A stretch of 64,000 nt of DNA from Desulfatibacillum sp. (GTDB lineage Bacteria > Desulfobacterota > Desulfobacteria > Desulfobacterales > Desulfatibacillaceae). Position numbers and translations under genes: made by a program. Position 1 is the stretch's first letter. Each line of letters begins with the position of its first letter. This document shows, one piece after another, positions 14,027-27,557 of the stretch. The notes beneath the pieces are model-generated. The model was not told the origin of the DNA, did no database searches, and saw only the letters and a list, made by a program, of their open reading frames with translations. The DNA lies in NCBI GenBank assembly GCA_016342355.1, contig JAEINP010000001.1:1-64000 (forward strand), in the 5' to 3' direction.

Positions 14027-14698
14027 ATGGGGGCTTCCCAAAAAAAGGGCGCTGGCAAAGCGGGATTGAATCGCAGGGACAAAGTGTTGGAGGCGGCGCG
14101 AGCCCTTTTTTTTGAAAAAGGATACCGGGGCGCCACCGTGGAGCAGATCGCCAAGCGGGCAGGATTCAGCAAGCGTACGGTTTATCTGGACTTCAAAAAT
14201 AAGGATGACCTTTATATGAGCGTATGCGCTCAGGGAATGGAAATCCTTGTAAAGGACATGGAAACCGTTCCCGTCGGGATATTGGACACCGACGAGTTTG
14301 TGGACGCCTTTCTGGATGTTCTGACCCGGTTCTCCCAAGAGCATGAAAAGTATTTGCACATGTTCACGGTGGAAGCCACGCCAGACTTGGTGGCCAATTG
14401 TTCGGAGGACGTCAGGCGCAGGGTGATTGAACTGGAACAGGCTGGCTACGGGATTGTGGTGGCCCAGATCGAAAAGGGGATTCAGGATAAAACTTTTCCC
14501 GAGTTTGACCCCATGGAGGCGGCAGGCATTTTTTTGGGTTCCGTGACAGGGGTTATTCTTCTTTCCCTGGGAGGAAGCCAGACCATTTTCTCCCGGGAAA
14601 CCCTGGAGTCCATGGCCAAGAGAGCAGGCAGGCTGCTATTGCGGGGTCTGGCCCATCCGGAAAAACGAAAACTGTGGCTGTGGGGCGGCAAAAGATAA
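14027..14698 (+). CDS. TetR/AcrR family transcriptional regulator
   Basis: Protein of 223 residues. The N-terminal HTH is complete: RDKVLEAARALFFEKGYRGATVEQIAKRAGFSKRTVYLDFKNKDDLY (residues ~17-62). The ligand domain is helical and ends in a basic tail. ATAAGG stands 7 bases before the ATG. A 180-base gap after the SDR may allow a separate promoter. It probably controls the preceding operon through the palindromes at 9216-9244; TetR proteins of this context usually sense a hydrophobic substrate or acyl-CoA. A strong terminator follows and ends the plus-strand block before the phage cassette. Confidence 0.9.
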   Translation: MGASQKKGAGKAGLNRRDKVLEAARALFFEKGYRGATVEQIAKRAGFSKRTVYLDFKNKDDLYMSVCAQGMEILVKDMETVPVGILDTDEFVDAFLDVLTRFSQEHEKYLHMFTVEATPDLVANCSEDVRRRVIELEQAGYGIVVAQIEKGIQDKTFPEFDPMEAAGIFLGSVTGVILLSLGGSQTIFSRETLESMAKRAGRLLLRGLAHPEKRKLWLWGGKR

Positions 14699-14740
14699 GG
14701 CTCTGCAACCGCTCCATCCATGGAAGCCAGTTATTCAGAA

Positions 14741-14780
14741 GGGGGAAAACACTTACCAACCCATGCTTTCCCCCTTTTTT
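14741..14780 (+). terminator. Intrinsic terminator after tetR
   Basis: GGGGGAAA (14741-14748) pairs with TTTCCCCC (14767-14774), 18-base loop, followed by six T. It separates the plus-strand operon from the convergent phage cassette, whose last gene ends at 14795. Confidence 0.9.
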
Positions 14781-14794
14781 GATGGTTCACATAA

Positions 14795-15241
14795 TTATTT
14801 TGTTTTCCATTCCCTAACCACTTTTTCACCGGTCCGGCCCACCACATAGCCTCCTACCCCGATTTTCATGAGTTCCCACAAGGCCGGTGGAAGTTCCAGC
14901 ACCTTTACGCTTCCTGGGAAAAAAAGCTGCCCATAGGGAACCAGCAGGTAATTATTCACCACAATGGCCACGATGGACATCATGAGGACAGGCCGCCAGT
15001 TCCTCTGAAGCCAGCTTTCGCCCCGGGCTTCGGCCTTGACAATATCGCCCTGGACCTCAAACAGCCGGGCCCCGGTTTCCTGGGCGATTCCCTGGAGGTC
15101 CAGGAGTTTTTGCTCCACCAGGGCCTTGTCCTCCTGGGAAAGCTCCCCCGTGATGGCGGCCCGGATGTCCTTGGCAAGGCTTCCCAGGCCGGTTGCTATT
15201 TCGCCGATTCCCAGCCCGGCCACCTTGGACAAAATATTCAT
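14795..15241 (-). CDS. GTA-type 3TM holin family protein
   Basis: Protein of 148 residues. The N-terminal ~75 residues are amphipathic and helical; then come GESWLQRNWRPVLMMSIVAIVV, a second hydrophobic stretch, and PPALWELMKIGVGGYVVGRTGEK. The WxQRNWRPxLM and LWxLMxIGVGGYVxGRxxEK pattern is that of the holin domain named for gene-transfer-agent release (PF11351). Such holins let lytic enzyme reach the wall or release particles; no endolysin is seen beside it. Last gene of the cassette. Confidence 0.82.
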   Translation of the reverse strand: MNILSKVAGLGIGEIATGLGSLAKDIRAAITGELSQEDKALVEQKLLDLQGIAQETGARLFEVQGDIVKAEARGESWLQRNWRPVLMMSIVAIVVNNYLLVPYGQLFFPGSVKVLELPPALWELMKIGVGGYVVGRTGEKVVREWKTK

Positions 15242-15254
15242 GGCGCCCTCCTGT

Positions 15255-15479
15255 TTACTTTACCAAATCCTTGAAAAACTGCCAGTAGATCACGACCACC
15301 CCCGCCCCGCCCAGGACTCCCCCGGCGAAGCTGAGGGTCCGGTGAACCCATTTCCGGTTTTCCAGGGCCACCAGCCGCGAATGGATGGTGTGCAAGTATT
15401 CGTAGAGGGTCCAGTCCCGTTGTTCCGGGCTCATTTTGTCTATCCAGTAGTCCCGGTCGATCATGTCGAATCCGTTCAT
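15255..15479 (-). CDS. Small single-span membrane protein of the phage cassette
   Basis: Protein of 74 residues. Start at 15479 is chosen because GGGAGG stands 5 bases upstream; the longer frame to 15581 overlaps the previous gene without a site. An N-terminal helical part (EQRDWTLYEYLHTIHSRLVALENRKW) is followed by one membrane helix (LSFAGGVLGGAGVVVIYWQFF). The layout resembles XhlA-type lysis accessory proteins. Placed 13 bp before the holin gene, it is probably part of the lysis or release module. Confidence 0.7.
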   Translation of the reverse strand: MNGFDMIDRDYWIDKMSPEQRDWTLYEYLHTIHSRLVALENRKWVHRTLSFAGGVLGGAGVVVIYWQFFKDLVK

Positions 15480-15501
15480 GACGGCCTCCCTTTGCCCTCC
15501 C

Positions 15502-16287
15502 TTATGTAAAGAGGGAGAAAAAGCGGGTGAGGGAATCCAGGGACCCGGGTTGATAGGTCGCACCCTGCACCACAGGTTCAAAGGCGGTGGTTTCCAGACC
15601 CAGGTTCAGGTAGGAAAGCCAGGGGTTGTTGTAGGGCTGCTCATCGGCCCATTTCCGGTATTCCTCCAAAAGCTGGTCCCCGGTGATCTCCCTTTGGGTT
15701 TCGCCCGCGTAGAGGGCTGTATCAATGGGCGCCTGGGCGTAATCCAGGGCTAAAGGCAGGGATTCCAGTTGCCTGTTCAGGTGGGATTGCTCCGCACCAT
15801 ACAGGCTTTGAGACAGGCTGGCCGCTAGGTCCGCGCTGAGATCCGCCCCGCTTTCCGTGATGGCGCGGGTGGCGGCCCCGGACGATCCGGCATTGGCGGC
15901 GATATAATGCTCCTGGATTTCGGGCAAAATTTTATCCTGCCAGTTTTGGATCATGGGGTCTTTGACCGAAGTCTCCCAGGTTTCCCGAGTGCTTGTGCCA
16001 TCGAAATCCTCCAGCAGGGCGCCCAAGGCGTTCTGCCCCTGACCGTAAGAGCCCTCCCCCTGGATCAGGCTGGATACCAGGTCAAAGGCCTGCTGTTGAA
16101 GGGGGCTGGTTCCTGCGTTGATTTGTCCTCCGTAGGATTCCACGCCCTGGCCCAGTTGCGAAGCCAGCAATTGGTTCAGGTTGATGAGGTTGTTTTTTTG
16201 AACGGGCAAAAGCGTGTCCACATTGCCCATGAATTTGGCGTCCTCGGTGGAGCCAAAAAGAAAATCTCCAAAATCTCCCATTGTCAT
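15502..16287 (-). CDS. Phage internal/structural protein, unknown function
   Basis: Protein of 261 residues, Gln/Ala/Leu/Ser-rich and mostly helical, without signal or domain I can name. Segments such as NQLLASQLGQGVESYGG and GSSGAATRAITESGADLSADLAASLSQSLYGAEQ resemble internal virion or ejection-type proteins of short-tailed phages. Its ATG (16287) lies in an ATGA overlap with the GNAT gene stop; an alternative Met two codons later is possible. Assignment rests on position and composition. Confidence 0.7.
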   Translation of the reverse strand: MTMGDFGDFLFGSTEDAKFMGNVDTLLPVQKNNLINLNQLLASQLGQGVESYGGQINAGTSPLQQQAFDLVSSLIQGEGSYGQGQNALGALLEDFDGTSTRETWETSVKDPMIQNWQDKILPEIQEHYIAANAGSSGAATRAITESGADLSADLAASLSQSLYGAEQSHLNRQLESLPLALDYAQAPIDTALYAGETQREITGDQLLEEYRKWADEQPYNNPWLSYLNLGLETTAFEPVVQGATYQPGSLDSLTRFFSLFT

Positions 16288-16754
16288 GCCTCCATGAGTA
16301 TGGTTTCCGACCGTTTAAAGCCCACTTTTTCCAGGGCCCGGGGCCGGGTGGTCCGGAAAACGATTCCGCTGAGTTTTTGTCGGGAGCGGATTTTTTCCAG
16401 GATGTTTTTGGCCTCTTCCACGATACCCTTTCCCTGAAACTCCTTGTCCACGCTAAGCATGTGCACGTGGATTTTTTGGTCCAAAGGGTTGATGGTGGCC
16501 CATAAAAAACCCATGATCTGCCCAAAGGCCGGGGAAGCCGGGTCCATAGGTGCAAAAACACCCAGGAGGTTGAATGGGTTCCGGCAGATCATGGGGCCTA
16601 ACCTGAACAGCCTTTCCGGGCTGCATTGCCGGGGTTTGACCTGCTCCACAAGACGGCGGGGAACCAGGGAAAAGTCCGAAACAGGGATGTATCGGAGACC
16701 TGTTCCCCTGGCCTTGGCGCCTATGGGGTGGGATTGTTCCAATAGGGTATCCAT
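16284..16754 (-). CDS. GNAT-fold acetyltransferase-like protein in the virion module
   Basis: Protein of 156 residues. The C-terminal half shows the GNAT core: strand GFLWATINP, strand VHMLSVDKEFQGKG (the QGKG part of the acetyl-CoA loop Q/RxxGxG/A), helix, and the final ALEKVGFKRSE with the typical GF strand-turn. GNAT-like proteins between tail and internal-protein genes are known in several short-tailed phages, with unclear roles. Its start overlaps the preceding gene by 34 bp. Confidence 0.72.
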   Translation of the reverse strand: MDTLLEQSHPIGAKARGTGLRYIPVSDFSLVPRRLVEQVKPRQCSPERLFRLGPMICRNPFNLLGVFAPMDPASPAFGQIMGFLWATINPLDQKIHVHMLSVDKEFQGKGIVEEAKNILEKIRSRQKLSGIVFRTTRPRALEKVGFKRSETILMEA

Positions 16755-16987
16755 TTGTTTTCCTCTATTTCAATCCAGCCGGTGTTATTTGCGTTATTTG
16801 CGCTGCCCATTTTAATGGCGCCATCGCCGGTACTCGGGATGGCGGTGGCCCGGGTGGCGTTTGTGTTGATCGCCTGGGCCAGTTCCTCCAGGATTTTTTT
16901 CAGCCTTCGGGTGTGGGTGCGGAAAAATCCTGCGAGGTCGGCGCTTTCGCTGTAAACCGGCAGGTCACAGGTGGGGGGTACTTTCAT
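16721..16987 (-). CDS. Small phage structural-type protein
   Basis: Protein of 88 residues, start at 16987 with GGGAGG 9 bases upstream. A helical N-terminal half (SADLAGFFRTHTRRLKKILEELAQAIN) is followed by a Asn/Gly-rich stretch ending NNTGWIEIEENKWIPYWN. No family recognised. It overlaps the upstream large tail protein by 4 bp (ATGA) and the GNAT gene by 34 bp, so it is firmly within the operon. Confidence 0.68.
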   Translation of the reverse strand: MKVPPTCDLPVYSESADLAGFFRTHTRRLKKILEELAQAINTNATRATAIPSTGDGAIKMGSANNANNTGWIEIEENKWIPYWNNPTP

Positions 16988-18597
16988 GGTATGATCCTCC
17001 CGGCGGGTTTGAACCACGGCATAATGGCGTGAATCCTTATGTTCTGGCCTTCAGCCTTGTGGTACAGACGGATGCGATGGAAGGCCCCGGTTGCGCCCGA
17101 ATACAGCCTTACCCATGCCTTTTCCCCTTCCCGGTCAAAGGCAAGCTGACGGGTAAGGTAGGCTGTCTGCCGGGTGTCCTTGAAAAAATCCACGTTAAGA
17201 GCCTGGGCCGGGCTGGTTTCCAGCAAAAAATCCACATAGCCCAGCCTGGCTTTTACACCGTATTCCCTGAAGGGATTCCATCGGCCCGAAACCACATCAA
17301 AGCCGATTTCCCCGTTTTCTCCGTCCGAGGCCGAGTTGTTAAGGCGATGCACATTGCCCGCCCGATCCCCGGCCAGGACCATGGGATACCCTGCCTGGAC
17401 TGAATTGGTCACCCATTTTTCCGCACAGGCTTCCCAGGTTTCGTCCGACATGTCTTTAACCGGATCAGGCGGGGAGGCCAGCCATATGGTGTTCTGGTCC
17501 AGGGTATGCAAACCCAGGCAGTTGAATGCCAGGTTAAAGATGCTCCAGGACCAGTTTTCGTAATTCAAGACCAGGACCCGGTCTGCGGATTCGCTGCCGG
17601 CAAAGGGAAACAGCAGCCAATACTGGCTTTGGTCTTCCAGGACCATGCCAAAGCAGGCGTTCATATGTTCCTGGTCAAAACCCAGGGCCAGGTCCGGGAT
17701 TTTTTCGTCCACGCGGCAGGCGTCCATGCCGTCCGTAAGCACTGGCCCTGCTTTGCCCAGGGCCAGGCTGTTATCCTGGAAGGCCACTACGGAAAAAGGG
17801 GCGCCACATCCGTCCACGGAGGATACTTTTTCCCATCGGAGGGGCAGGTCGCTGCCTCCTGTGTATCGCAAAAGCCAAACGGAGTTTGAAAACCAGGCCA
17901 CAATTTCGTCCCGCAGGGAGGCCACGCCGCGCAATGTTTCGCCGGTGGGCGCGTCCACAAAACCGTCGTTGGTCCAGTCTTCGGGGTTGCCGGGTTTGCA
18001 CCATCTGGCCCGTTGCAGGTGAAGCGTCCCGTCTTCCAGGGTGGCAAACAGGATAAGCCGTTCCTTGTGCACCATAAGGAAGGCGCACTGGTCCACATAG
18101 TCTCCGGACCCGGAAAGGTCGGGGCGCAAAGCCTGGAAGATGGAGCCGTTGTAAACCTGGATGCCGTCCGTGCCTGTTCCATCCCCGGACACCGTTTCAC
18201 CCATGACCGGCAGGTTGTTGGTCATGAAAACCTTGCCCTGCCAGTTGGCCCAATGGATGAAATCCGTTGGCTGGCCGGTCCATACGGGATTTGACCCCCG
18301 TTGGGCATGGGAAACCATGGTCAGGCCAGTGCTTACATGTTCATAGAGATAGGACTGGTCCGCCACCAGTTGGATTCTGGCGCCCTGGCTGTCCATCAGG
18401 TGGAAGATGCCCGTGATAGCCAGGCCCTGGCCCGTGGACATGAAAGATGTGTATCCCCGGCGTTTTTCCAGAACTCCCCGGTGGATCATTGCATCTTCCA
18501 TGGTTGTAAAAGCGTCCTTGGGCAGCAGCCAGGGTTCCTTGCCAAGTTCCAGGCCTGTGGAAAAGTCGGCGATCAAAAAGGGCTGGTAGGAGTTCAT
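16984..18597 (-). CDS. Large phage tail/stabilisation-type protein
   Basis: Protein of 537 residues from the ATG at 18597 (GAGGTG 4-5 bases upstream); an ATG at 18609 overlapping the upstream stop is the alternative. It is strand-rich with repeated W/F motifs (DFIHWANWQGKVFMTNN, GNPEDWTNDGFVDAPTGETLRG, YWLLFPFAGSESADRVLVLNYENWSWSIF), which suggests a beta-propeller-like fold as in head-tail stabilisation or tail tubular proteins of short-tailed phages. Position after the adaptor and collar genes agrees. Exact orthology is not claimed. Confidence 0.7.
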   Translation of the reverse strand: MNSYQPFLIADFSTGLELGKEPWLLPKDAFTTMEDAMIHRGVLEKRRGYTSFMSTGQGLAITGIFHLMDSQGARIQLVADQSYLYEHVSTGLTMVSHAQRGSNPVWTGQPTDFIHWANWQGKVFMTNNLPVMGETVSGDGTGTDGIQVYNGSIFQALRPDLSGSGDYVDQCAFLMVHKERLILFATLEDGTLHLQRARWCKPGNPEDWTNDGFVDAPTGETLRGVASLRDEIVAWFSNSVWLLRYTGGSDLPLRWEKVSSVDGCGAPFSVVAFQDNSLALGKAGPVLTDGMDACRVDEKIPDLALGFDQEHMNACFGMVLEDQSQYWLLFPFAGSESADRVLVLNYENWSWSIFNLAFNCLGLHTLDQNTIWLASPPDPVKDMSDETWEACAEKWVTNSVQAGYPMVLAGDRAGNVHRLNNSASDGENGEIGFDVVSGRWNPFREYGVKARLGYVDFLLETSPAQALNVDFFKDTRQTAYLTRQLAFDREGEKAWVRLYSGATGAFHRIRLYHKAEGQNIRIHAIMPWFKPAGRIIP

Positions 18598-18605
18598 GGC
18601 GCACC

Positions 18606-19400
18606 TCATGTCTTGATGACATACATTACAGCCACATTCTTAGGCCGGGTTTCGTTTCCTCCCACAGCGTCCGGAGACACCGCGCTCATGCCGCTGTCGT
18701 TGTGTCCCACCGGTCCATGGCCGTCAAAAGTAATCAGGTTGGTGTCATCATAGTGGGAGTGGCTTTCAAATTCGTCAATTTGTTTGGTGCCCACGTAATC
18801 GCCGCAGGTGCCGTCGCCCCGGTCGAACCGGGAGGAGGCATCGGGATCGGAACCTGAACCGTGGCTCCACCCGCGCAGGAAATAGCCTCGTAAATCCGGC
18901 AGGTTAAAGGTTGTAGAGCCGTCTCCCATGCCGTACATCGTGGAAATGACGCTGAACAGGTTTTCGTGGGTGGAGCGGGAAATGGCTGCGCCGTTGCATT
19001 CCAGCCAGCCCGAAGGGGCGATGGGTCCCATAAAAGCCACCACGGAGCCGGTGGGGTTGATCAGATTTTCGTCCGGGGTGTAGTTGATGGCGCCCTGGGC
19101 CGTGAGGGTGAGTACGTTGCCGTCTTCGTCCTTCCAGTGGAGTTCGGCTTTGTCTTCCACGTCCAGGGTGTAAAGCACGCCTTTGTCATCCTCGGTGGAA
19201 GGATTGGAAGCCAGGGGTTGATGAAAGGTGACCTGGGCATGTTCCCCGTGATCTCCGTCCTCGCCTCCCAGCTCCATATAGTGGTCCCTGGCCATTCGCT
19301 GGCGGATGGCGGACTTCAGGGTGCGTATAACCCCGGCGCCCGCGCTTATGTTGTCGCTGTTTGCCGGGATGGTTTCAAAAGATGAGTCCCAGGTTGTCAT
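18606..19400 (-). CDS. Phage tail collar domain protein
   Basis: Protein of 264 residues. The first ~90 resemble a tail-fibre or baseplate N-terminus (WDSSFETIPANSDNISAGAGVIRTLKSAI). Residues ~115-185 are a tail collar domain (PF07484): GSVVAFMGPIAPSGWLECNGAAISR followed by FNLPDLRGYFLRGW. The His/Asp-rich end (SHSHYDD) is also usual for collar proteins. Probably part of the receptor-contact apparatus. Confidence 0.88.
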   Translation of the reverse strand: MTTWDSSFETIPANSDNISAGAGVIRTLKSAIRQRMARDHYMELGGEDGDHGEHAQVTFHQPLASNPSTEDDKGVLYTLDVEDKAELHWKDEDGNVLTLTAQGAINYTPDENLINPTGSVVAFMGPIAPSGWLECNGAAISRSTHENLFSVISTMYGMGDGSTTFNLPDLRGYFLRGWSHGSGSDPDASSRFDRGDGTCGDYVGTKQIDEFESHSHYDDTNLITFDGHGPVGHNDSGMSAVSPDAVGGNETRPKNVAVMYVIKT

Positions 19401-19439
19401 GGTTTCCTCCTGTGGCCGGAAAGTGTGGGATAGTGGTTT

Positions 19440-20081
19440 TTAGAAACCCGGCGCAGACCTTTTGTCCGGGGGAATCTGCCTGACCTGCTTCCTTGCAATG
19501 GAGTTAAGGTGAAAGGAATAGGCGTCGCGCAGGTTGGAGGCTTCACTGTCCTCCCCGTTTTCCTGTAAGATTTCCATGGCAGTTCCATAAGCGATGAAAG
19601 GTCCCCACTTGGCGTCCGCCGGGGAATCCGTGTCGTCTTCCAAGGCGTCCAATGTGGTGGTGGCTGCCGCCCGGAAAGTGTATTCCCTGTCAGGGCGGGG
19701 GCGCAGGGTCAGGGTTCTGCCATAGATCAGGCAGGCCCTGGGCCGGTCTCTTTGGGTGTCGGATTCGGGAAAAAGGCGAAAGAACAGGTCCTGATCGCTT
19801 AAAAGATCCAGGATGGTGACCATTCCGCCCTCATCCTTTAGGGTAAAGGGTTTTTCCAGGGAAAGGACGGAGGATTCCAGGGCATACTCTCCAGAATCCG
19901 TGCTGGTAAGGGCTATTTCGCGCCAGGTTTGAATTTCACGGACGTTCACTTCCTGGGGAAGCATATGCACGTAAAATTGATTGATGGCTCCCAGTAAATC
20001 CTCTTCTGAAAGCTGGCCAATATCAGGCCTGCCTGTGAGCTTGCGTACCTTGGCCTTAATGTGGGACAGGTTCCAGTCCAT
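19440..20081 (-). CDS. Phage head-tail adaptor-like protein
   Basis: Protein of 213 residues, helical at both ends with a central strand region. The segment LIYGRTLTLRPRPDREYTFRAAATTTLDAL, followed by an Asp-rich loop and KWGPFIAYGTAMEILQENGED, matches the gp4/gp6-like adaptor family of short-tailed phages that sits under the portal. Gene order (after capsid and small proteins, before the tail genes) fits. No anomalies seen. Confidence 0.75.
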   Translation of the reverse strand: MDWNLSHIKAKVRKLTGRPDIGQLSEEDLLGAINQFYVHMLPQEVNVREIQTWREIALTSTDSGEYALESSVLSLEKPFTLKDEGGMVTILDLLSDQDLFFRLFPESDTQRDRPRACLIYGRTLTLRPRPDREYTFRAAATTTLDALEDDTDSPADAKWGPFIAYGTAMEILQENGEDSEASNLRDAYSFHLNSIARKQVRQIPPDKRSAPGF

Positions 20082-20108
20082 GGTTTAAGTCCTTATGTTT
20101 AAAAGGGA

Positions 20109-20411
20109 TCAAACCCCGGCTCCGGGAGTGGAAACCGGGTGGCAGGAAAAACGGTGCACCGTGCCGATGTTCACGGATTTCATCTGCCCTGTTGCCGGAT
20201 CGGACCGGTATTCCATGCGAGGAGTGGACAGACTATTGAGATGCCGGACAACCTTTTCCGGCAAGTCGTATTCCTTTCCGTCTTCCAATGGTCCGAAATG
20301 CACTCCTTCGTAGTTGAAGGAAACATCCACTCCGCGGGTTTCGTTGTTCATGAATTGAATGCGGACCAAAGGTCCAAGATCCGGGCTGGTGCTTCCGGCT
20401 GTTTTTGCCAT
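20109..20411 (-). CDS. Small phage structural-type protein
   Basis: Protein of 100 residues with a strand-rich centre (VRIQFMNNETRGVDVSFNYEGVHFGPLEDGKEYDLPEKVVRHLNSL). The GKEYDLPEKVVRHLNSL part resembles short proteins found between capsid and adaptor genes in N4-gp56-capsid phages. No named function. Tight spacing to both neighbours supports it being real. Confidence 0.68.
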   Translation of the reverse strand: MAKTAGSTSPDLGPLVRIQFMNNETRGVDVSFNYEGVHFGPLEDGKEYDLPEKVVRHLNSLSTPRMEYRSDPATGQMKSVNIGTVHRFSCHPVSTPGAGV

Positions 20412-20465
20412 GGTTGTTTTCCTTTCGAGGCCCGGGGGAACAAGCCCCCGGGCTGATGGGTTTTA

Positions 20466-20879
20466 TCAGGCGATGTCGCCCAGGTCTTCCAGGCGCAAGC
20501 TCCGATGAGCCCGCACAAGGATGATGTCGTCGTCATTCATGAAATCGGCGGCAATGCTGATTCCGGAAAACCCCTGGGCCCGAACCGGGTCCGAGTCGTC
20601 GTTCTCCGTGCCCGGGTCGTAGGTCACTGCCTGATATGTGGAAATGTAACCTCCGCTGTTTTTAAGCTGGATGGAACTGGCGCCTGTGGAGCCGCTGTCG
20701 GCAATGCGGTTGTGCCAGATCTCCCGGCCCTCCTGCAAGAGGGGGGACCACTCGATTTTAAAGGGGGCTCCATAGGTGGCGTTCAGGTTGTAAACCTCCG
20801 CGTAATCCGGGATAAACCCCAGTTCCAAATTGCAGGGGTTGCCGTCGGCCTGGAATTTGATGGTGACTGATTCATGCAT
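20466..20879 (-). CDS. Phage structural-type protein next to the major capsid
   Basis: Protein of 137 residues, predicted mostly strand (TIKFQADGNPCNLELGFIPDYAEVYNLNATYG). Small beta proteins directly after the capsid gene often act as capsid decoration or head-fibre proteins. That role is inferred from position only; no motif proves it. Confidence 0.68.
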   Translation of the reverse strand: MHESVTIKFQADGNPCNLELGFIPDYAEVYNLNATYGAPFKIEWSPLLQEGREIWHNRIADSGSTGASSIQLKNSGGYISTYQAVTYDPGTENDDSDPVRAQGFSGISIAADFMNDDDIILVRAHRSLRLEDLGDIA

Positions 20880-20928
20880 GGTTATCTTGCCTCCATGAAA
20901 GGTGGCGCCCGGTTGGGGCGGCAGTGGA

Positions 20929-21873
20929 TCAGGAATGGGTGGCCTTGAGAATGTGAATGAACTCGTCGTTAAGGATGCGGGCTACAAAGGCCATCTTCCA
21001 GCCCGAAGTGGCGCGCTGGTCCAGGGGATCATCCGACCCTCCGGCGCCAAAGCCCTTGCGCACGTTCTTGAGGGAACCCTCCAGGTCCGAAACCCCCAGG
21101 CCGTCCTTGGCCAGGATGGGCAGGTAATATTGGGTGGGACTTCCGGCCACTTGGTAGGCTTCGGAAGTCATAAGCCAACGCACATTGCCGGTAGCTCCCC
21201 ATTCCGCGTCCATGACCGAATCCTGGGACCCGTATTCCACGGTGGCCTTGAATCCCTCCACTCCTTCCAGGTCATCCACCAGGTCCGTATGCATGATTCC
21301 CCAATAGGCCCGACGCACCGGGGATGTGCCTGTGCCCTGGCCCGCATCGATCCGGGGGGCGATCATTTTGGCGTTGTAACCCAAAAGGATTTTGACAATG
21401 GAGTCGATGTCGCCCTTGGTGACTTCCGTGGGGGTGCTGCCGTTGCTTCCCTTGGAAGCGCTGGTGGAGCTGGCGCAGGCGGCAATGATGTCCCGCACGA
21501 TTTCGTCCCGGGTCTGGCCAGCCTGGAATCCCAGCTTTTCCCCGGCAATGGTCCATTCTTCGTCTTCCACGGTCTGGTCCACCACGTCAGTGATGTGCAC
21601 AAAGTCTCCGTACCAGGAAATGGTGGCGGAAAGGTCGGTTTTGGAAAGCCTTTGGCCGGGGGGAGTGACCCCTTCGGTCAGGGGGGTGGTGGCGGTGGAC
21701 AGGTTGGAATACCGGCGGAATTTGATGGTGTTTCCGCTCTTTTGGGGCAAGGGCCTGTTTTGGGCGAATAGCTCGTGCACCAGTTCGGGCTTGGCTGCGT
21801 CCAGGAGCACCTTGTCATAAAACAGGCTCACTGCGGGGTCCACCTGGGTGGTTGTGGTCAGGTTGTCTGCCAT
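20929..21873 (-). CDS. N4-gp56 family major capsid protein
   Basis: Protein of 314 residues with the recognisable pattern of the N4 gp56 capsid family: YDKVLLDAAKPELVHELFAQNRPLPQKSGNTIKFRRYSNL near the N-terminus, then PLTEGVTPPG, the TISWYGDFVHITDVV strand, and GYNAKMIAPRIDAG plus YWGIMHTDLVDDLE in the HK97-like core. A GGAGG ribosome binding site overlaps the last codons of the scaffold gene, as expected for a highly expressed gene. Self-assembles into the head shell with the adjacent scaffold. Confidence 0.9.
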   Translation of the reverse strand: MADNLTTTTQVDPAVSLFYDKVLLDAAKPELVHELFAQNRPLPQKSGNTIKFRRYSNLSTATTPLTEGVTPPGQRLSKTDLSATISWYGDFVHITDVVDQTVEDEEWTIAGEKLGFQAGQTRDEIVRDIIAACASSTSASKGSNGSTPTEVTKGDIDSIVKILLGYNAKMIAPRIDAGQGTGTSPVRRAYWGIMHTDLVDDLEGVEGFKATVEYGSQDSVMDAEWGATGNVRWLMTSEAYQVAGSPTQYYLPILAKDGLGVSDLEGSLKNVRKGFGAGGSDDPLDQRATSGWKMAFVARILNDEFIHILKATHS

Positions 21874-21876
21874 TGT

Positions 21877-22593
21877 TTAACCTCCAATTTTGATTTTTCC
21901 GGCCTTGACCTGTTCCTTGTATGCGGAAAATTCGGCTCCGTTCATTTTGGCTATCCGGTTGGCGGCGGAAATGCCTGTGCCTCCGGCGGCCGCGCTGGCG
22001 GAACCGGGTTTTTCGGAATTGGCCAAAATTTTCTGCATCTGGGAAGCCACATCACCCTGGCCCGCGTTTCGGGCCGAGGGCGAAAGCCTGGCGATGGAGT
22101 AGGCCGTGGCCAGGGGATTCCCGCTGTACCGGATTACGTCCATGAGGCCGGGGTTGTTTTTAAGCACCTGGGGCAAATGTTCCTTGATAGTTTGTGCAAA
22201 ACCGGGATTGGCCATGGCAAAGGAAAGCTGGGAGGCCAGGGCCTCCATTTGCCTGGCCTGCCCTTGCATGGCCTTTTTGGCCTGGCCCACGGTCAGGGGG
22301 GCGTCCTCGGCCATGCCATCCAGGGGATCGGGCTTTTTGGCGGCGCCCTGGCGAGTCAGTTCCAGTTGCCTGCGATAGAGGGCGGCCTGGTCCCTGGCGC
22401 TTTTCAATTCCTCTCTAACGCTTTGGACTACAGACAGGGGCACGGTTTTGGGAGCGCCGTCCTGGCTGCTATCCGGGGAGGATTGGGCGGAATTTCCGGC
22501 AATCCCTGCGGGGGTGTCGGCCCCGGTTTGGTGGTTTGCTTCCCCGGCGGCGGGAATGTTTTGTGCGCCCGTAGTGGGTTGGGGGTTTTCCAT
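21877..22593 (-). CDS. Phage scaffolding-type protein
   Basis: Protein of 238 residues with a low-complexity Ala/Ser/Gln-rich N-terminus, a central coiled-coil-like part (VREELKSARDQAALYRRQLELTRQ) and a basic C-terminal helix with GEFSAYK-like residues ending in KIKIGG. This composition and the position directly before the capsid gene are typical of scaffolds. It ends 3 bp before the capsid start. Function inferred from context and composition. Confidence 0.75.
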   Translation of the reverse strand: MENPQPTTGAQNIPAAGEANHQTGADTPAGIAGNSAQSSPDSSQDGAPKTVPLSVVQSVREELKSARDQAALYRRQLELTRQGAAKKPDPLDGMAEDAPLTVGQAKKAMQGQARQMEALASQLSFAMANPGFAQTIKEHLPQVLKNNPGLMDVIRYSGNPLATAYSIARLSPSARNAGQGDVASQMQKILANSEKPGSASAAAGGTGISAANRIAKMNGAEFSAYKEQVKAGKIKIGG

Positions 22594-22684
22594 GCAATTC
22601 TCCTTCTCGCCCGTGAAGGCGGCCTGTCCCTGGCCCCTTCCCCCGGCGGCGGTTGCAAAAAATGTTGTTTGGTTCCCTTTGTTT

Positions 22685-23077
22685 TCAGCCGTGAATGATG
22701 GGCATGTGTCTGGCGATACGAGCGATTTCAGGCACCAGTTCCGCCGGAGGGGCCTTGATGATGCTTGGCCTGTCCAGGGGCAGTACCCACAATCGTTTGG
22801 CCCTGCTATTTCGGTTGTCGATGAAAAAACACATGGTCCCGAGCATTTTGGGCGGTTGTGCGCTGGAAAGCACTATGGTGGTCCGAATACGCCTTTCGTC
22901 CATGGGGTCCTGGCGGCTGGCGACCAGAAGGTAGTAGGCTTTCTTGTTTTGGTTGGAGTCCACCACTTTGCGAATCCTGCCCATGACCTCCTTTCCCATC
23001 ATGGCGCGGGCATCGCCCATGAGCAGGGTGGAGTCAGGGGAAAACAGGGCGGGTTCCCGGATGATGATCTGGGGCAT
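22685..23077 (-). CDS. Phage protein between portal and scaffold
   Basis: Protein of 130 residues. Start at 23077 is fixed by AGGAGG 6 bases upstream; the frame continues far upstream as a shadow of the portal gene. It overlaps the portal 3' end by 44 bp. Basic, with strands and helices (KAYYLLVASRQDPMDERRIRTTIVLSSAQPPKMLGTMCFFIDNRNSRAKRLWVLPLD). I do not recognise the family. No catalytic motif is visible. Confidence 0.72.
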   Translation of the reverse strand: MPQIIIREPALFSPDSTLLMGDARAMMGKEVMGRIRKVVDSNQNKKAYYLLVASRQDPMDERRIRTTIVLSSAQPPKMLGTMCFFIDNRNSRAKRLWVLPLDRPSIIKAPPAELVPEIARIARHMPIIHG

Positions 23078-24965
23078 GGTTTGCCTCCTTTTGCATGGTG
23101 CGGATGATGGGCATGGCTTGGCGGAGTTGGTCCCGGTCCATTTCGGCGATGTCCCTGGCTGTGCGTACCCGTTCCCCGGCTTCGGCTGTGAGGTTTTTCC
23201 GGGCCTGGGTCTGTTTTTGGGCTGCCCCGGCCAAATCGCTCCGGATACGCGCCCTGGCAAGCTCTTCCTGAACCCTTGCCAGCGCCGCCTGGCTTTGGGA
23301 TGCCTTTGTCCGGGCTTGTTCTTCGGCTTCCACCATGGTTTGCAGGCGGCCTTTGTCCTCAATGGGAGCGGCGTCCAGGATGGCTTTCCAGGGAATGGGC
23401 GCACCCATTTGTTTGAGGCTCACAAGCTGGGCAAAGTACATTTGGCGCTGGGTGTCGGAAAGGACTCCTTCCACGGGAATGGCGTCGTATTTTCCGAAAT
23501 CGCCGGTGAAGAATTCCCGGGAAGGCTGTTGGCCCAGGATGCGGGCGACCTTCTGGGGGGTGTAGTTGGCCTGGATCAGCTTGATGAGTTTGTGACCCAC
23601 CAGTTTTTTGGCAAGGCGATAGTTGTCGAAAATGTCCTGGAGGATGGTCAGTCCGGCTGCCTGGCGCATTTTGGCGAGAATTCCGGCCACCTGCATGGTG
23701 TCGCTCTCGGCCATGCCGAACAGTTCTGAATTGGCTCCGGGAATTTCCATGATATCCCGGTCCAGTGTTTCGGAAAGCTGCATAAGCCCTGCGGGGATGT
23801 CGGGCGGCAACAGGCGCTGGGCCTGGTCCATGTCCCCTTTCATCCAGACCACTTGGCCCTGGCCGCTTTGATACAGGGCTTCGGGGTTGACCACGCTGTT
23901 TTCCCGGGCTTTCCAGCCTGTGGAAATCTGGGAGTCTATGATGTCCAGCATTTTGGAACGCCGCTTGTTCACCTCGGTCTGGGGGTCCCGCATGCACCGG
24001 ACGATTCCCTGGAGTTTCCAGCTTGCCTGGTCGTATTCGGGCTCGAAAAAGCCCAGGATCGGCACAAAGGGAAAGTCTTCCAGGCCTCCGGGTTCCGGCC
24101 CCTGATGGATGAGCTGGTCTTCAACGAACACGGCAAGCTCCACGCTTCGGCGCATGGTCTCCAGGATTTTCAAGTGAGGGTGGGAGGAAAGGAGGCGTTC
24201 CAGGGCCGGAGCGTCTCCTTTCCAGGGTAGGCTTTGGCCGGTGGAGGGGTCCAGAAGGATGGTGAGGGGTTTGTGGGTGCGGGTCCAGAATTCGTCGTAG
24301 CGAAACAGGTTGTCCCCGGCGGAGCCCCGGGCAAGGGCGCCGTATTCGTATTTGCCGTCGGCCACGCCTTTGGGTTTGAGCTTGTCCATCATGTGCCTTT
24401 TGCTTGCGGGGAGGATGGCCCGGATGGCGTCTTTGGAAAGGAGTTCCCTGCGGCAGATGTAACCGCAGTCCGAGAGATCCCGTTCAGAAAAGGCGGGGTC
24501 CAGCAAAAAGCGGTTATAGGGCACCCGTTTGATTTTTATGTCCCCGTTCAGAGGATCGTGGGAGTAGTCCACATACAGGTTGACCAGGTTGATGCCGGTT
24601 TTTAGAGCGCCTCCGGCAAAGGCGTCGGACATGATGTGGTAGGCGTTGCAGGATTGCATCTGCCACTGACACAGGGCGGAAAGTTGGGTGGCGGTGGTTT
24701 GGTCCGAGCCTTCCACCGGGTCCACCTTGAGGGCCAGGCGATTTTTGCGCTGGTACCCTTCGATGAGTTTGACCACTCGGCGGACCTTATTGAAAACCAG
24801 GGCGCTCCGGCGTTGTTTTTCCAGGTATTTCTTGGCGGAGGCGTCCCACTGGTCCCCCAGCATGACGGAGAGGTCGGTTTTGGCTTCGGAAAGAAAGGGC
24901 GCCCAATAGGCATGGGCTCTTTCGTAGGCTTGGGCGAAATCCTTTTTAATGTCGTTGTCGCTCAT
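23034..24965 (-). CDS. Phage portal protein (podovirus type)
   Basis: Protein of 643 residues. The N-terminal half has the usual portal pattern (DLSVMLGDQWDASAKKYLEKQRRSALVFNKVRRVVKLIEGYQRKNRLALKVDP), with conserved W and G residues and a later DQLIHQGPEPGGLEDFPFVPILGF segment. The C-terminal ~110 residues form a long charged coiled coil (EEQARTKASQSQAALARVQEELARA), as in P22-type portals where it makes the barrel. It forms the dodecameric DNA channel and docks the large terminase encoded 34 bp upstream. Confidence 0.87.
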   Translation of the reverse strand: MSDNDIKKDFAQAYERAHAYWAPFLSEAKTDLSVMLGDQWDASAKKYLEKQRRSALVFNKVRRVVKLIEGYQRKNRLALKVDPVEGSDQTTATQLSALCQWQMQSCNAYHIMSDAFAGGALKTGINLVNLYVDYSHDPLNGDIKIKRVPYNRFLLDPAFSERDLSDCGYICRRELLSKDAIRAILPASKRHMMDKLKPKGVADGKYEYGALARGSAGDNLFRYDEFWTRTHKPLTILLDPSTGQSLPWKGDAPALERLLSSHPHLKILETMRRSVELAVFVEDQLIHQGPEPGGLEDFPFVPILGFFEPEYDQASWKLQGIVRCMRDPQTEVNKRRSKMLDIIDSQISTGWKARENSVVNPEALYQSGQGQVVWMKGDMDQAQRLLPPDIPAGLMQLSETLDRDIMEIPGANSELFGMAESDTMQVAGILAKMRQAAGLTILQDIFDNYRLAKKLVGHKLIKLIQANYTPQKVARILGQQPSREFFTGDFGKYDAIPVEGVLSDTQRQMYFAQLVSLKQMGAPIPWKAILDAAPIEDKGRLQTMVEAEEQARTKASQSQAALARVQEELARARIRSDLAGAAQKQTQARKNLTAEAGERVRTARDIAEMDRDQLRQAMPIIRTMQKEANHAPDHHPGTRPVFP

Positions 24966-24999
24966 GGGTTCCTCGGGGGTTGGAGGTTTCCGGTAATTT

Positions 25000-26331
25000 T
25001 CAAATTCCAGCGGGTGGGGCGAATTGCCGGTACATGCGGCAGGCTTCCGAAGCCGTCATGCCTGTGGCGGAGCGTTGGCACAGGTCCAGGCCTACGGCCA
25101 GATACCGGAAGGCGTCGGCGGCATGGCTGGTCCAGTCGTGATGGGGGATTGCGCCAAAGCATGCGGTGCGATCGTTGTACACCCGGCGATACTGGCGGAG
25201 GGCTTCCAGGCCCGGGGCGCATTTGTTTTGGTCGAACCAGCATTTGGGAATGATCAGCCTTGCCGCGTTGATTCCGTCCGCCAGAGGGAGGTTGGGGGCT
25301 ACGGTGAAGGAAATACCCAGGCTTTTGGCCACTTCCAGGCGGCTTTTACCTGTGCCCAGTTCGCGCACCCGGATGTCGTGGGGCGCCAGGTGGGTTCCGT
25401 AAAGGTGCTGGCGATCCCGCAGGGCGCGCACGTAGTAATCCAGGCCCTGGCCGGCAGCTTCCAGGTAATCCACGATGCGGATTTCGCCCCCGGGGGCGGC
25501 CTGGAAAAACCATACGGAGGTGGAGTCGCTCATGCCCAGGTCCCAGGCTGTATGGACCGGGAGGCTGGGCTCCACAGGCACGGAGGTGATGCGTCCTTCT
25601 TTTTCCGCCTGGGCGATTTGGGGCCCGTAATAGGCGCCGATGATGGCGGCGGAAAAGCTGCACTCGAATTCCTGTTCGTATTGTTCCGGTGTCATTTCAT
25701 TTTTGGCGGCGACCAGTTCCTCCTGGTTCACAATGCCGGTTTCCGAGGCCCGGTACATGGCGCAAAACCAGTCCGGGTCCTGCCTGGCGAACTGGTAAAG
25801 CTCATAAAAGGCATTGTGGCCCCGAGGTGTGCCTATGAACATGGCCCATCCCAGGCGGTCGGAGAGAGCAGGACGGATGATCTCGCCCCAGACTCTTTCG
25901 GGCATCTGAGCCATTTCATCCAGAACCACGCCGTCCAGGTAAATGCCCCTGAGGCGATCCGGGTTGTCCGCTCCCAGCAGGGAGATGCGGGCGCCGTTTG
26001 GCAGGTCGCACCGCAGTTCTGTTTCGTGAAAAGTGGCGCCCTCCAGGGCTCCGGCGAATTTCTTTAAATAATCCCACACAACGCTTTTTGCCTGTTTGTA
26101 CAGGGGGGCTATGTAGGCGTACCGGGGGGCTGGCAGGGCGTTCCGGCAGGCCTTCATGATGAGTTCGTTCACAGCGGCCACGGTTTTGCCGAACCTGCGG
26201 TGGCAGACCAGCACGGAAAAGCGCTTTTTGTTCTGGTGGATTTGCCACTGGTGCGCACGGGGGCGGTATGGAATGACCACATTGCGCGGGGCCTGCTTGC
26301 CTCCGGAACTATGCGCCGCATTATTGTCCAT
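25000..26331 (-). CDS. Phage terminase large subunit
   Basis: Protein of 443 residues. ATPase part: Walker A CHRRFGKT at 43-50 and Walker B VVLDEM at 135-140, then the coupling motif GTPRG. Nuclease part (RNase H-like): AWDLGMSDSTSVW near 268 and a C-terminal HHDWTSHAADAFRYL near 405-419, which supply the acidic metal ligands. All key residues are present, so the packaging motor looks functional. It starts 3 bp after the small-subunit stop. Confidence 0.92.
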   Translation of the reverse strand: MDNNAAHSSGGKQAPRNVVIPYRPRAHQWQIHQNKKRFSVLVCHRRFGKTVAAVNELIMKACRNALPAPRYAYIAPLYKQAKSVVWDYLKKFAGALEGATFHETELRCDLPNGARISLLGADNPDRLRGIYLDGVVLDEMAQMPERVWGEIIRPALSDRLGWAMFIGTPRGHNAFYELYQFARQDPDWFCAMYRASETGIVNQEELVAAKNEMTPEQYEQEFECSFSAAIIGAYYGPQIAQAEKEGRITSVPVEPSLPVHTAWDLGMSDSTSVWFFQAAPGGEIRIVDYLEAAGQGLDYYVRALRDRQHLYGTHLAPHDIRVRELGTGKSRLEVAKSLGISFTVAPNLPLADGINAARLIIPKCWFDQNKCAPGLEALRQYRRVYNDRTACFGAIPHHDWTSHAADAFRYLAVGLDLCQRSATGMTASEACRMYRQFAPPAGI

Positions 26332-26334
26332 GCT

Positions 26335-26550
26335 TTAGAAATCCTCCCCGGCCCAACGGATTTCCACGGGGCCTTGTTGTTCTTCCCTTTTTCCAAACAT
26401 GCCCAAATGCTTTCCCATGAGTTCCGCAGCCCGAACCGCCGTGGAAAACTGCCTGGACTCCATGGCCCCTTCCCTTGCCTCCTGTAGATAGCGGATGATA
26501 TCCTCCATGCGGAGGTCTTCTTCAGGGATGGAGAACGGTTGCTGGCTCAT
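26335..26550 (-). CDS. Putative terminase small subunit
   Basis: Protein of 71 residues from the ATG at 26550 (AGGAG 6 bases upstream). Helical: PEEDLRMEDIIRYLQEAREGAMESRQFSTAVRAAELMGKHLGMFGKREEQ. The A-x-xAAELMGKHLGMFG pattern occurs in short small-terminase proteins, where it oligomerises or contacts the large subunit; an HTH for DNA recognition is not obvious. Position directly before the large subunit supports the call. It overlaps the preceding 56-residue gene by 29 bp. Confidence 0.72.
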   Translation of the reverse strand: MSQQPFSIPEEDLRMEDIIRYLQEAREGAMESRQFSTAVRAAELMGKHLGMFGKREEQQGPVEIRWAGEDF

Positions 26551-26692
26551 GGTTGTCTCCTGGCAGGCCCATAAACCAGTCCTCGTCCAGTTCTTCTGAA
26601 ATGCCGCTGCTGGAAATGGACCGGGGCTCCCCCAACACGCCGTCCGGGTCGTCGCTATACCCGTATTCGTCGAACAGATCTTCCCATTCCAT
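26522..26692 (-). CDS. Short acidic protein at the head of the phage operon
   Basis: Protein of 56 residues, first gene of the cassette, with AAAGGAG 6 bases before the ATG. Very acidic (MEWEDLFDEYG...DDPDG...EELDEDWF). No homologue recognised. Its overlap with the small terminase gene and the strong ribosome binding site argue that it is real. Acidic mini-proteins at operon heads can be DNA mimics or regulators, but this is speculation. Confidence 0.65.
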   Translation of the reverse strand: MEWEDLFDEYGYSDDPDGVLGEPRSISSSGISEELDEDWFMGLPGDNHEPATVLHP

Positions 26693-26727
26693 GGTATTCT
26701 CCTTTGTAATAGGGCGGATTTTTTAAA

Positions 26728-26739
26728 AGGAGCGCTCCT
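26728..26739. promoter_or_regulatory. Perfect 12-bp palindrome upstream of the phage operon
   Basis: AGGAGCGCTCCT, 36 bases before the first ATG of the minus-strand cassette, followed on that strand by TTTTAAAAAA. It could be an operator or a weak terminator; its position between promoter and first gene favours a control role. Confidence 0.4.
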
Positions 26740-27146
26740 CCAATTGGCTATAAGCATATCATGGGTTTTGGCATGGTTCGGTCTATGCACAGCTATGGAC
26801 AGGAGGGAGCGGTCCAGGATCAATTAAAACTATTGACAGGGTTGCCGGGGAGGAAAATGGCGTCATTAATCAACTATTATCAAACTTGATTTCATACGGA
26901 TGGGTGCATTCAAATATGTTCAGGGTAATGTTTTCTGCAGGGCTGTATAAATAACAGGAGTGAAACTAAACGCAAAGCAGGGCTTCATACAGAGGCCCGG
27001 AGCAACGGGTTCGCATGTTGTGGAAGACGAGCTTAAAGATAGACGCGGAACGCATCAGGGACCAGGGCATAACCGCCTTTCCTATGAAGCCCGTTGTGCG
27101 GCGGCAGATGGCCCTGGCGCTGAGGGCGGCCCCGGGTCAGGCCGCT
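26740..27146. other. Intergenic region right of the phage cassette
   Basis: About 400 bases between the cassette and the ybjN-like gene. A 53-codon plus-strand frame (27015-27176) has a protein-like sound but no ribosome binding site. No integrase, tRNA or direct repeat matching the left edge (14.70-14.79 kb) was found by eye. Confidence 0.4.
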
Positions 27147-27557
27147 TCATCCCAAGGGGCCGTGAAATCTGGCTAATTCGGTTCCAAACAACCCCATGGC
27201 ATGCTCCAGCCCGCGCAATGAGGCCTCGATCATATGCTTGGTCAGGCGGTCAAAGGGATGGGTGGCCCTGAACAGGAGGACTCTTGAATTGGCATCAATG
27301 GCGAAGCCTCCATACAGGATTTCCCGGTTGATCTGAAGGACTCTTTTGAAAAACGCCTCGGTGTTGTTCTCTGGAACCACCGAGACAATCTGCTGCATGA
27401 TGAGCACCTCGGCAACGCAGTCAAAAACCATGTTCACAATGGAGTTGGCTTCGTCGCTGGCCACTATCAGGCCCCGGCTTTCATCTTCCTTGACTATGGT
27501 CAGTCCCAGGTCTTCCAAAAAGTCCCGGGTTCTTATATGGTTCCATGACCCGGTCAT
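27147..27557 (-). CDS. YbjN domain-containing protein
   Basis: Protein of 136 residues with GGAGGAAGAC before the ATG. The sequence follows the YbjN/type-III-chaperone-like fold: LTIVKEDESRGLIVASDE, NMVFDCVAEVLIMQQIVSVVP, ALFxRxLQINREILYGGFAID, then VLLFRATHPFDRLT and a final helix. Family members are small cytoplasmic proteins with chaperone-like structure and unclear targets. It starts 27 bp after the secreted TPR protein gene on the same strand, so the two form an operon. Confidence 0.82.
   Translation of the reverse strand: MTGSWNHIRTRDFLEDLGLTIVKEDESRGLIVASDEANSIVNMVFDCVAEVLIMQQIVSVVPENNTEAFFKRVLQINREILYGGFAIDANSRVLLFRATHPFDRLTKHMIEASLRGLEHAMGLFGTELARFHGPLG

Follow-up and report, generated by a model that had tools for sequence, protein, structure and literature searches.

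A podovirus-derived packaging cassette kept at one chromosomal site in Desulfatibacillum, a candidate for a gene transfer agent lineage

Main finding

The first 64,000 nucleotides of contig JAEINP010000001.1 from Desulfatibacillum sp. (assembly GCA_016342355.1; this whole stretch is called the window below) carry a cassette of 17 genes, all on the minus strand at 14795-26692, for DNA packaging, head and short tail, with the gene for the terminase small subunit (TerS) near the right end and a holin gene last (14795). We conclude that the cassette is probably a domesticated, vertically inherited podovirus remnant, i.e. a viriform resembling the gene transfer agents (GTAs). Comparison shows that one ancestral site in this genus has retained a module for packaging, head and short tail from a podovirus clade that is still extant. 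Replication and integration genes are absent, lysin and ejection-type genes are absent in linkage, and selection has kept the remainder.

Vertical descent and selection

We compared the window with the genome of a sister species (G001), read as D. alkenivorans. The two are colinear over 17.7 kb at 78.6% DNA identity, with more aligned pieces rightward, and the cassette is flanked by the same genes on either side. Every one of the 16 main genes has an open frame in each species, and at ~78% DNA identity such integrity is more than chance would leave. The ratio of nonsynonymous to synonymous divergence (dN/dS) is 0.050-0.175 for 15 of the 16 (for orf100 dS is saturated) and 0.055-0.181 for eight flanking host genes; median dS is 1.13 in the cassette vs 1.08 in the same eight genes. 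An earlier note on this DNA had proposed vertical inheritance in sister species and purifying selection as tests: the shared site and flanks, with dS like that of the flanks, agree with the first, and the dN/dS range and open frames with the second. Codon usage is also host-like, with a relative synonymous codon usage correlation of 0.94 vs 0.36-0.80 in three viral relatives. The region upstream of the cassette is separated from the right flank in D. alkenivorans by a gene for a sensor histidine kinase (type assigned by eye; L032:359-2404).

The same cassette, 94% identical to that of D. alkenivorans, is found in a further Desulfatibacillum strain (IMG/VR 2522572160_000005; L062/L007). IMG/VR files this copy as an 11.9-kb virus, or uncultivated virus genome (UViG); the record is probably a domesticated element catalogued as a virus.

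GTAs are hard to distinguish from broken prophages, and an ordinary defective prophage in decay would account both for the missing phage functions and for that UViG listing. A neutral remnant, however, should have lost frames over such a distance, while here the 16 main genes have all remained open in two species that differ by dS ~1, with dN/dS of 0.05-0.18 like the flanks. This largely contradicts a decaying prophage, which we rejected on the open frames and dN/dS and hold to be very improbable.

In a tree of the major capsid protein (MCP), the copies from the window, D. alkenivorans and the further strain (L007) form one clade with support of 100/100. That clade is close to extant viral contigs, as it could be if similar phages had repeatedly and independently inserted at one hot spot. 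The single clade, synonymous divergence equal to that of the flanks and conservation of the ~150-bp upstream region as well leave this explanation hardly any credit.

The CrtI-CrtI-TetR block to the left of the cassette is also present in four other genomes (G003, G005, G006 and G007; TetR identity 42-62%). Beyond TetR no cassette is found in G005, G006 or G007, from three other genera of the family (best cassette match E 0.075), and the G003 contig stops there. In G007, genes from both cassette flanks lie within ~5 kb of each other, with one block inverted relative to the window. Most simply, the cassette would have entered this lineage between the divergence of the genera and that of the two species, and would have been retained since.

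Ends and surroundings

A Pfam scan of 34 flanking open reading frame (ORF) products, a subset of the window ORFs, found no integrase, recombinase, replication protein or lysin; the products are metabolic, regulatory or without a family. There are no tRNA genes in the window, and no exact repeats of at least 10 bases common to 14401-14900 and 26501-27250. Thus neither the cassette nor the 34 products hold the integration/excision and replication genes of an active or satellite prophage. The earlier note had described an undamaged, contiguous packaging and short-tail cassette ending in a GTA-type holin, with host genes on both sides and no integrase, replication or lysin gene alongside, a description that these scans bear out; the att repeats and linked integrase or replication module that it had named as counter-evidence were looked for at the ends and flanks, and none was found.

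Small size and self-contained packaging genes, together with the existence of related phages, would suit a capsid-forming phage satellite, or a split temperate phage with its remaining genes elsewhere, that is still mobile. Such an element is difficult to reconcile with a single copy in the genome (by DNA search and by MCP search), no integrase found, no end repeats, and an orthologous place with flank-like synonymous divergence. We therefore rejected a mobile satellite, and consider either form of this explanation quite implausible.

Gene content of the cassette

Assignments (Table 1) are from Pfam and PHROGs profiles, with folds from AlphaFold models searched with Foldseek. The terminase, portal, capsid, collar, hub and holin are caudoviricete-derived by similarity, and the adaptor and hub by fold. 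For the hub (model pLDDT 77.7), Foldseek matches are the tail hubs of Pa223, VP1, SU10 and P22 (gp10), with a best E of 1.5e-25. The adaptor model (pLDDT 88.5) leads to tail-complex proteins of A4, SU10, VP1, Pa223 and KHP30 (best E 2e-8); its match to T7 gp11 is weak (E 0.02). With a podovirus adaptor and tail hub among the predicted folds, the cassette is a predicted short-tailed particle module, and with the P22-like portal these folds uphold the podovirus type assigned in the earlier note. A tailocin, which is a tail without head and packaging genes, was rejected, as the cassette has genes for terminase, portal, scaffold and capsid and these are conserved. The small acidic ORF at the right end is conserved in D. 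alkenivorans, and a similar N-terminus is recognisable in G005, i.e. in two genera.

Table 1. Features of the cassette and its upstream region in the window, listed from right to left
Feature	Coordinates	Strand	Evidence
Conserved upstream region, candidate operator with three direct CTGTNNATAG repeats	26693..26843	-	Alignment with D. alkenivorans
Small, acidic 56-aa ORF that overlaps TerS from upstream	26522..26692	-	ATG at 26692
Terminase small subunit (TerS), 71 aa, C-terminal part only	26335..26550	-	phrog_51 positions 199-225 of 261, E 0.0014
Terminase large subunit (TerL)	25000..26331	-	PF03237 E 7e-8; phrog_2 E 1e-39
P22-like portal, 643 aa	23034..24965	-	PF16510 E 2.8e-77; dN/dS 0.081
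orf130, conserved, portal-scaffold interval	22685..23077	-	82% in D. alkenivorans; virus-contig homologues
Putative scaffolding protein	21877..22593	-	Portal-capsid interval; phrog_14606 (unknown function) E 0.002; virus-contig homologues
Major capsid protein (MCP)	20929..21873	-	phrog_1357 E 2.8e-46; PF25209 E 1.6e-6; dN/dS 0.053
orf137, conserved head-module protein	20466..20879	-	80% identity and dN/dS 0.096 vs D. alkenivorans
orf100, conserved head-module protein	20109..20411	-	86% in D. alkenivorans; positional homologues in virus contigs
Head-to-tail adaptor, 213 aa	19440..20081	-	Predicted fold
Tail collar/fibre protein	18606..19400	-	PF07484 Collar E 4.5e-23
Tail hub/nozzle, 541 aa, P22 gp10-like	16984..18609	-	phrog_3287 E 2e-28; predicted fold
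orf88, small protein	16721..16987	-	72% in D. alkenivorans; weak homologues in L102, L092
GNAT-like protein	16284..16754	-	PF00583 E 5e-4, barely past cut-off; post-hub homologue in 12 virus contigs
orf261, virion-module protein	15502..16287	-	dN/dS 0.116; 32-33% homologues at same position in virus contigs L079, L093, L104
orf74, small protein	15255..15479	-	86% identity and dN/dS 0.050 vs D. alkenivorans; no Pfam/PHROGs family
GTA_holin_3TM holin, 148 aa	14795..15241	-	PF11351 E 1.8e-15; phrog_3427 E 2.9e-26; dN/dS 0.058 vs D. alkenivorans

Phage relatives and the ejection-type module

Scans of virus contigs gave 24 loci with TerL, 16 with MCP and 31 with portal, among which the further strain's own cassette record recurs. 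Those TerL relatives that have enough sequence mostly lack a portal or capsid resembling the window's, and TerL alone is therefore a poor guide. A podovirus clade in IMG/VR (L079, L092, L093, L102, L104 and others; contigs up to 64 kb) shares the order TerL-portal-scaffold-MCP-orf100-adaptor-hub-GNAT-orf261, as far as its contigs reach. Since 12 virus contigs (L079, L085, L089, L092, L093, L095, L097, L098, L099, L101, L102 and L104) have a GNAT homologue after the hub, this gene is an ancestral part of the phage module and not a host acquisition. An extra gene of ~210-236 amino acids (aa) in the orf100-adaptor interval of L063, L066, L079, L093 and L104 is absent from the cassette. The GTA-type holin is not a trait of the whole clade, since PF11351 is absent from G005 and 10 viral records.

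The relatives also differ from the cassette after orf261. There L079, L093 and L104 encode a giant protein (at least 2037, 1863 and 1632 aa, respectively) besides one or two of 250-412 aa, while L092 has proteins of 359 and 856 aa and L098 of 501 and 500 aa. From position and size we read these as ejection proteins. The three giants have no PHROGs family, and the giants do match each other between phages at 44-52%. In the cassette, orf261 is directly followed by orf74 and then the holin. We took 17 phage queries from the post-hub region, and four of them, all orf261 homologues, match the 230-kb contig of the window.

Among phage records more generally, there were 30 MCP matches, the ten listed being at 31-35% with short human-gut contigs as the best, and 71 portal matches, the twenty listed being at 22-26%. 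The ten best TerLs in named phages are those of pelagiphages, at 52-54%.

Terminase and packaging

The ATPase and nuclease motifs of TerL are intact in the window, D. alkenivorans and G005, aligned with viral relatives; we take these motifs to be CHRRFGKT, VLDEMAQ, AWDLG and HDWTSHAADAF. Since none of terminase, portal, scaffold and capsid has been lost, selection appears to act on DNA packaging itself.

TerS has 71 aa in three cassettes, and ~105 aa in G005 if the ATG of MPRPKK is used. A viral TerS was picked by eye in 30 loci, none being evident in the others, and these frames, counted between stop codons, are 109-212 residues long (a contig end truncates one of them). Several have N-termini like a helix-turn-helix (HTH), and the longer ones have weak matches to HTH families in PHROGs. 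The L007 TerS matches phrog_51 at positions 150-224 of 261. The TerS of GTAs is described as shorter than phage TerS, lying upstream of TerL and having no N-terminal DNA-binding domain (PMC6854486), and loss of the DNA-binding part has been proposed as typical of GTA terminases (Sherlock et al., PMC6854486; review, PMC11841831). The window's TerS is of this type, at 71 aa, directly upstream of TerL and matching phrog_51 in the C-terminal part only; the trait is not exclusive to GTAs.

Distribution and a second cassette

Portal matches occur in 4 of 9 genomes of the family Desulfatibacillaceae, namely both of the window's genus and both of a second genus, g5. We also used wider samples, which overlap among order, class and phylum. 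With a threshold of E 1e-10, the portal profile detected 11 genomes among 389 sampled from the order (7 outside the family, of which only G196 is strong); with E 1e-30, it detected 5 among 389 sampled from the class. The MCP profile, with E 1e-20, detected 3 among 395 sampled from the phylum. G196, whose module is more distant and whose TerS is longer, was taken as a phage. The portal of G297 is 24% identical to that of the window. The earlier note had counted patchy presence and decay in close relatives against a domesticated particle: no decay is seen, and both species of the genus have the cassette at the same site; the family is patchy. Vertical inheritance accordingly applies within Desulfatibacillum, the g5 copy being probably separate.

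The g5 cassette (L033, L034 and L048 in G005, contig C17 at about 23.7-39.4 kb; L035 and L129 in G008) has the same gene order in G005, at another site with other flanks; the 10 flanking products there (5 per side) include no integrase or other phage family. It too is missing the ejection-type module. In G005 the cassette is followed by genes for secreted or spike-like proteins, for one small membrane protein and for a lysozyme, and these are colinear in a G008 fragment. PF05838 is present in G005, and PF00959 adjoins the cassette in G005 and sits in the matching G008 fragment. Of 10 complete or partial genes compared between G005 and G008, nine have dN/dS of 0.19-0.50, a looser constraint than in Desulfatibacillum.

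We first suspected one domestication event for the whole family. This is disfavoured by the MCP tree, where extant viral contigs (L063-L066, L069) group with Desulfatibacillum to the exclusion of G005 and G008 (99/99) and so fall between the two cassettes. In the portal tree (quick method, long branches flagged), G005 pairs with L082, which covers part of the portal only, and the branching of this pair, the Desulfatibacillum clade and the L063-L066/L069 group is left unsettled. With moderate confidence we consider the g5 cassette probably a separate recruitment, making two in the family; the viral contigs in these trees are fragments and possibly resident cassettes themselves, which weakens this reading.

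Upstream repeats

The ~150 bases that precede the operon are conserved in both species, and contain the CTGTNNATAG repeats on the minus strand at 26783-26839 in the window and at 20184-20240 of contig C84 in G001. Their spacing is 37 and 10 bases in both species, with one G001 copy one base off. The triple cluster is unique within the 230-kb contig, and the motif occurs five times in the window vs 0.64 expected. The repeats are candidate binding sites for an unlinked activator.

A possible mode of action and its difficulties

A host regulator that acts at the conserved repeats would turn on the operon in some of the cells. Small heads would form from scaffold and capsid, and TerL, whose only guide would be a TerS that has no recognisable DNA-binding part, would start packaging at many places. 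The heads would be filled with pieces of the host chromosome (headful packaging of host DNA is to be expected, as TerS would not be sequence-specific), after which adaptor, hub and collar/fibre would close the head. The holin and an unlinked or host muralytic enzyme would lyse the producer, and relatives would receive the DNA. The presence of the holin points to release by lysis, its muralytic partner being either unlinked or of a family outside our searches.

Several points weigh against a GTA-like element. (i) The remaining 13 of the 17 phage queries match nothing on the 230-kb window contig, the G001 contig or the G005 and G008 stretches, and the largest ejection-type protein tested has no match in the window's own genome, although fast-evolving counterparts could escape such a search; with ejection-type proteins not in linkage, delivery is the weakest step and is doubtful. 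(ii) No muralytic gene is linked, and the two lysin families that we searched for, PF05838 and PF00959, are missing from both Desulfatibacillum genomes. (iii) Seven of the 30 viral TerS frames, all of 109 aa (in L014, L018, L019, L020, L021, L028 and L029), also have no evident N-terminal HTH, so a short TerS counts as supportive only, and we dropped it as a sole proof of a GTA. (iv) Host-like codons are compatible with a donor phage already adapted to the host. (v) The genus sample consists of two species and one further strain. (vi) Particles, packaged host DNA and transfer are predictions from the genes. The domesticated or GTA reading of the earlier note is thereby split: domestication is backed by the shared site, open frames and dN/dS, while sequence cannot establish that random host DNA is transferred.

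The first of these points would be less troublesome if the domesticated particle had another job, such as killing or signalling in the manner of PBSX, packaging host DNA without delivering it to recipients. The ejection-type module is missing both here and from the G005 cassette, and the collar/fibre protein and holin are kept, as such a particle might have it. Yet Pfam and PHROGs searches of the cassette revealed no toxin or immunity gene, and purifying selection on TerL and TerS implies that packaging matters; we think a killer or signalling particle unlikely, if worth bearing in mind.

The domesticated, GTA-like viriform thus remains our preferred reading. More speculatively, two genera of Desulfatibacillaceae might have separately recruited the same podovirus clade as gene-transfer particles without replication, integration or ejection-type module, in which case a minimal GTA would either deliver DNA in a new way or serve a use other than delivery; we put this forward only tentatively. 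Taken together, the phage clade, the site occupied in two species, the cassette-free block in three genera and the probable second recruitment make the losses and retentions during domestication readable gene by gene.

Comparison with known gene transfer agents

In PMC9662315, GTAs are defined by caudoviricete-derived proteins forming caudovirion-like particles, by mostly random host DNA as cargo, their own genome not being fully packaged as the head is too small, by a fully endogenised genome, often over several loci, and by mostly vertical or co-diversifying descent with delivery of DNA to other cells. The cassette has caudoviricete-derived proteins and a fixed chromosomal site without integrase or end repeats, and is inherited vertically within its genus. 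Three of the six features in this definition are accordingly found and three need experiments, so we class the cassette as a GTA-like viriform candidate and not as a proven GTA. It is a strong candidate for a new GTA lineage.

RcGTA is siphovirus-like, and the cassette differs from it in having a P22-like portal with a podovirus adaptor and hub. Pfam describes the holin family PF11351 as 'for gene-transfer release'. RcGTA and other Rhodogtaviriformidae resemble the cassette in vertical inheritance and a reduced TerS, and are described as having genes scattered over several loci (PMC9662315, PMC6854486).

The closest published parallel in kind is FpGTA of Faecalibacterium, a podovirus-like GTA published in 2026 (PMC12946183), so that the earlier note's expectation that a podovirus-type GTA would be new no longer holds. 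Both have a compact operon (10.5 kb in FpGTA) with TerS, TerL, portal, scaffold, capsid and short-tail genes, and the TerS of FpGTA has no obvious DNA-binding domain (PMC12946183). FpGTA has its fibre and lysis genes in a second, unlinked operon, and differs in its Firmicute host and in its particles, ~9 kb of packaged DNA and proteomics, where the present cassette is known through its genes (PMC12946183). Two human-gut contigs filed as phages, L132 (MT836159) and L133 (MT836324), have a compact TerL-portal-MCP cassette with host-like genes around it (by eye). Their MCPs are 34-35% identical to the window's and their layout resembles FpGTA I; judged by layout, they look like FpGTA-type elements.

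Our searches of the open-licence literature turned up neither a description of this cassette nor one of any Desulfatibacillum GTA. Dd1 of Desulfovibrio desulfuricans, which has a short tail, likewise belongs to a sulfate reducer and is likened to the cassette by description only. Its predicted TerS, Ddes_0720, has 125 aa and is described as being without a DNA-binding domain (PMC6854486, PMC11841831). If our reading is true, podovirus-type GTAs extend beyond Faecalibacterium to cultured anaerobes in which transfer is testable, and the cassette may help to provide a genetic counterpart for what was observed long ago as Dd1 in sulfate reducers.

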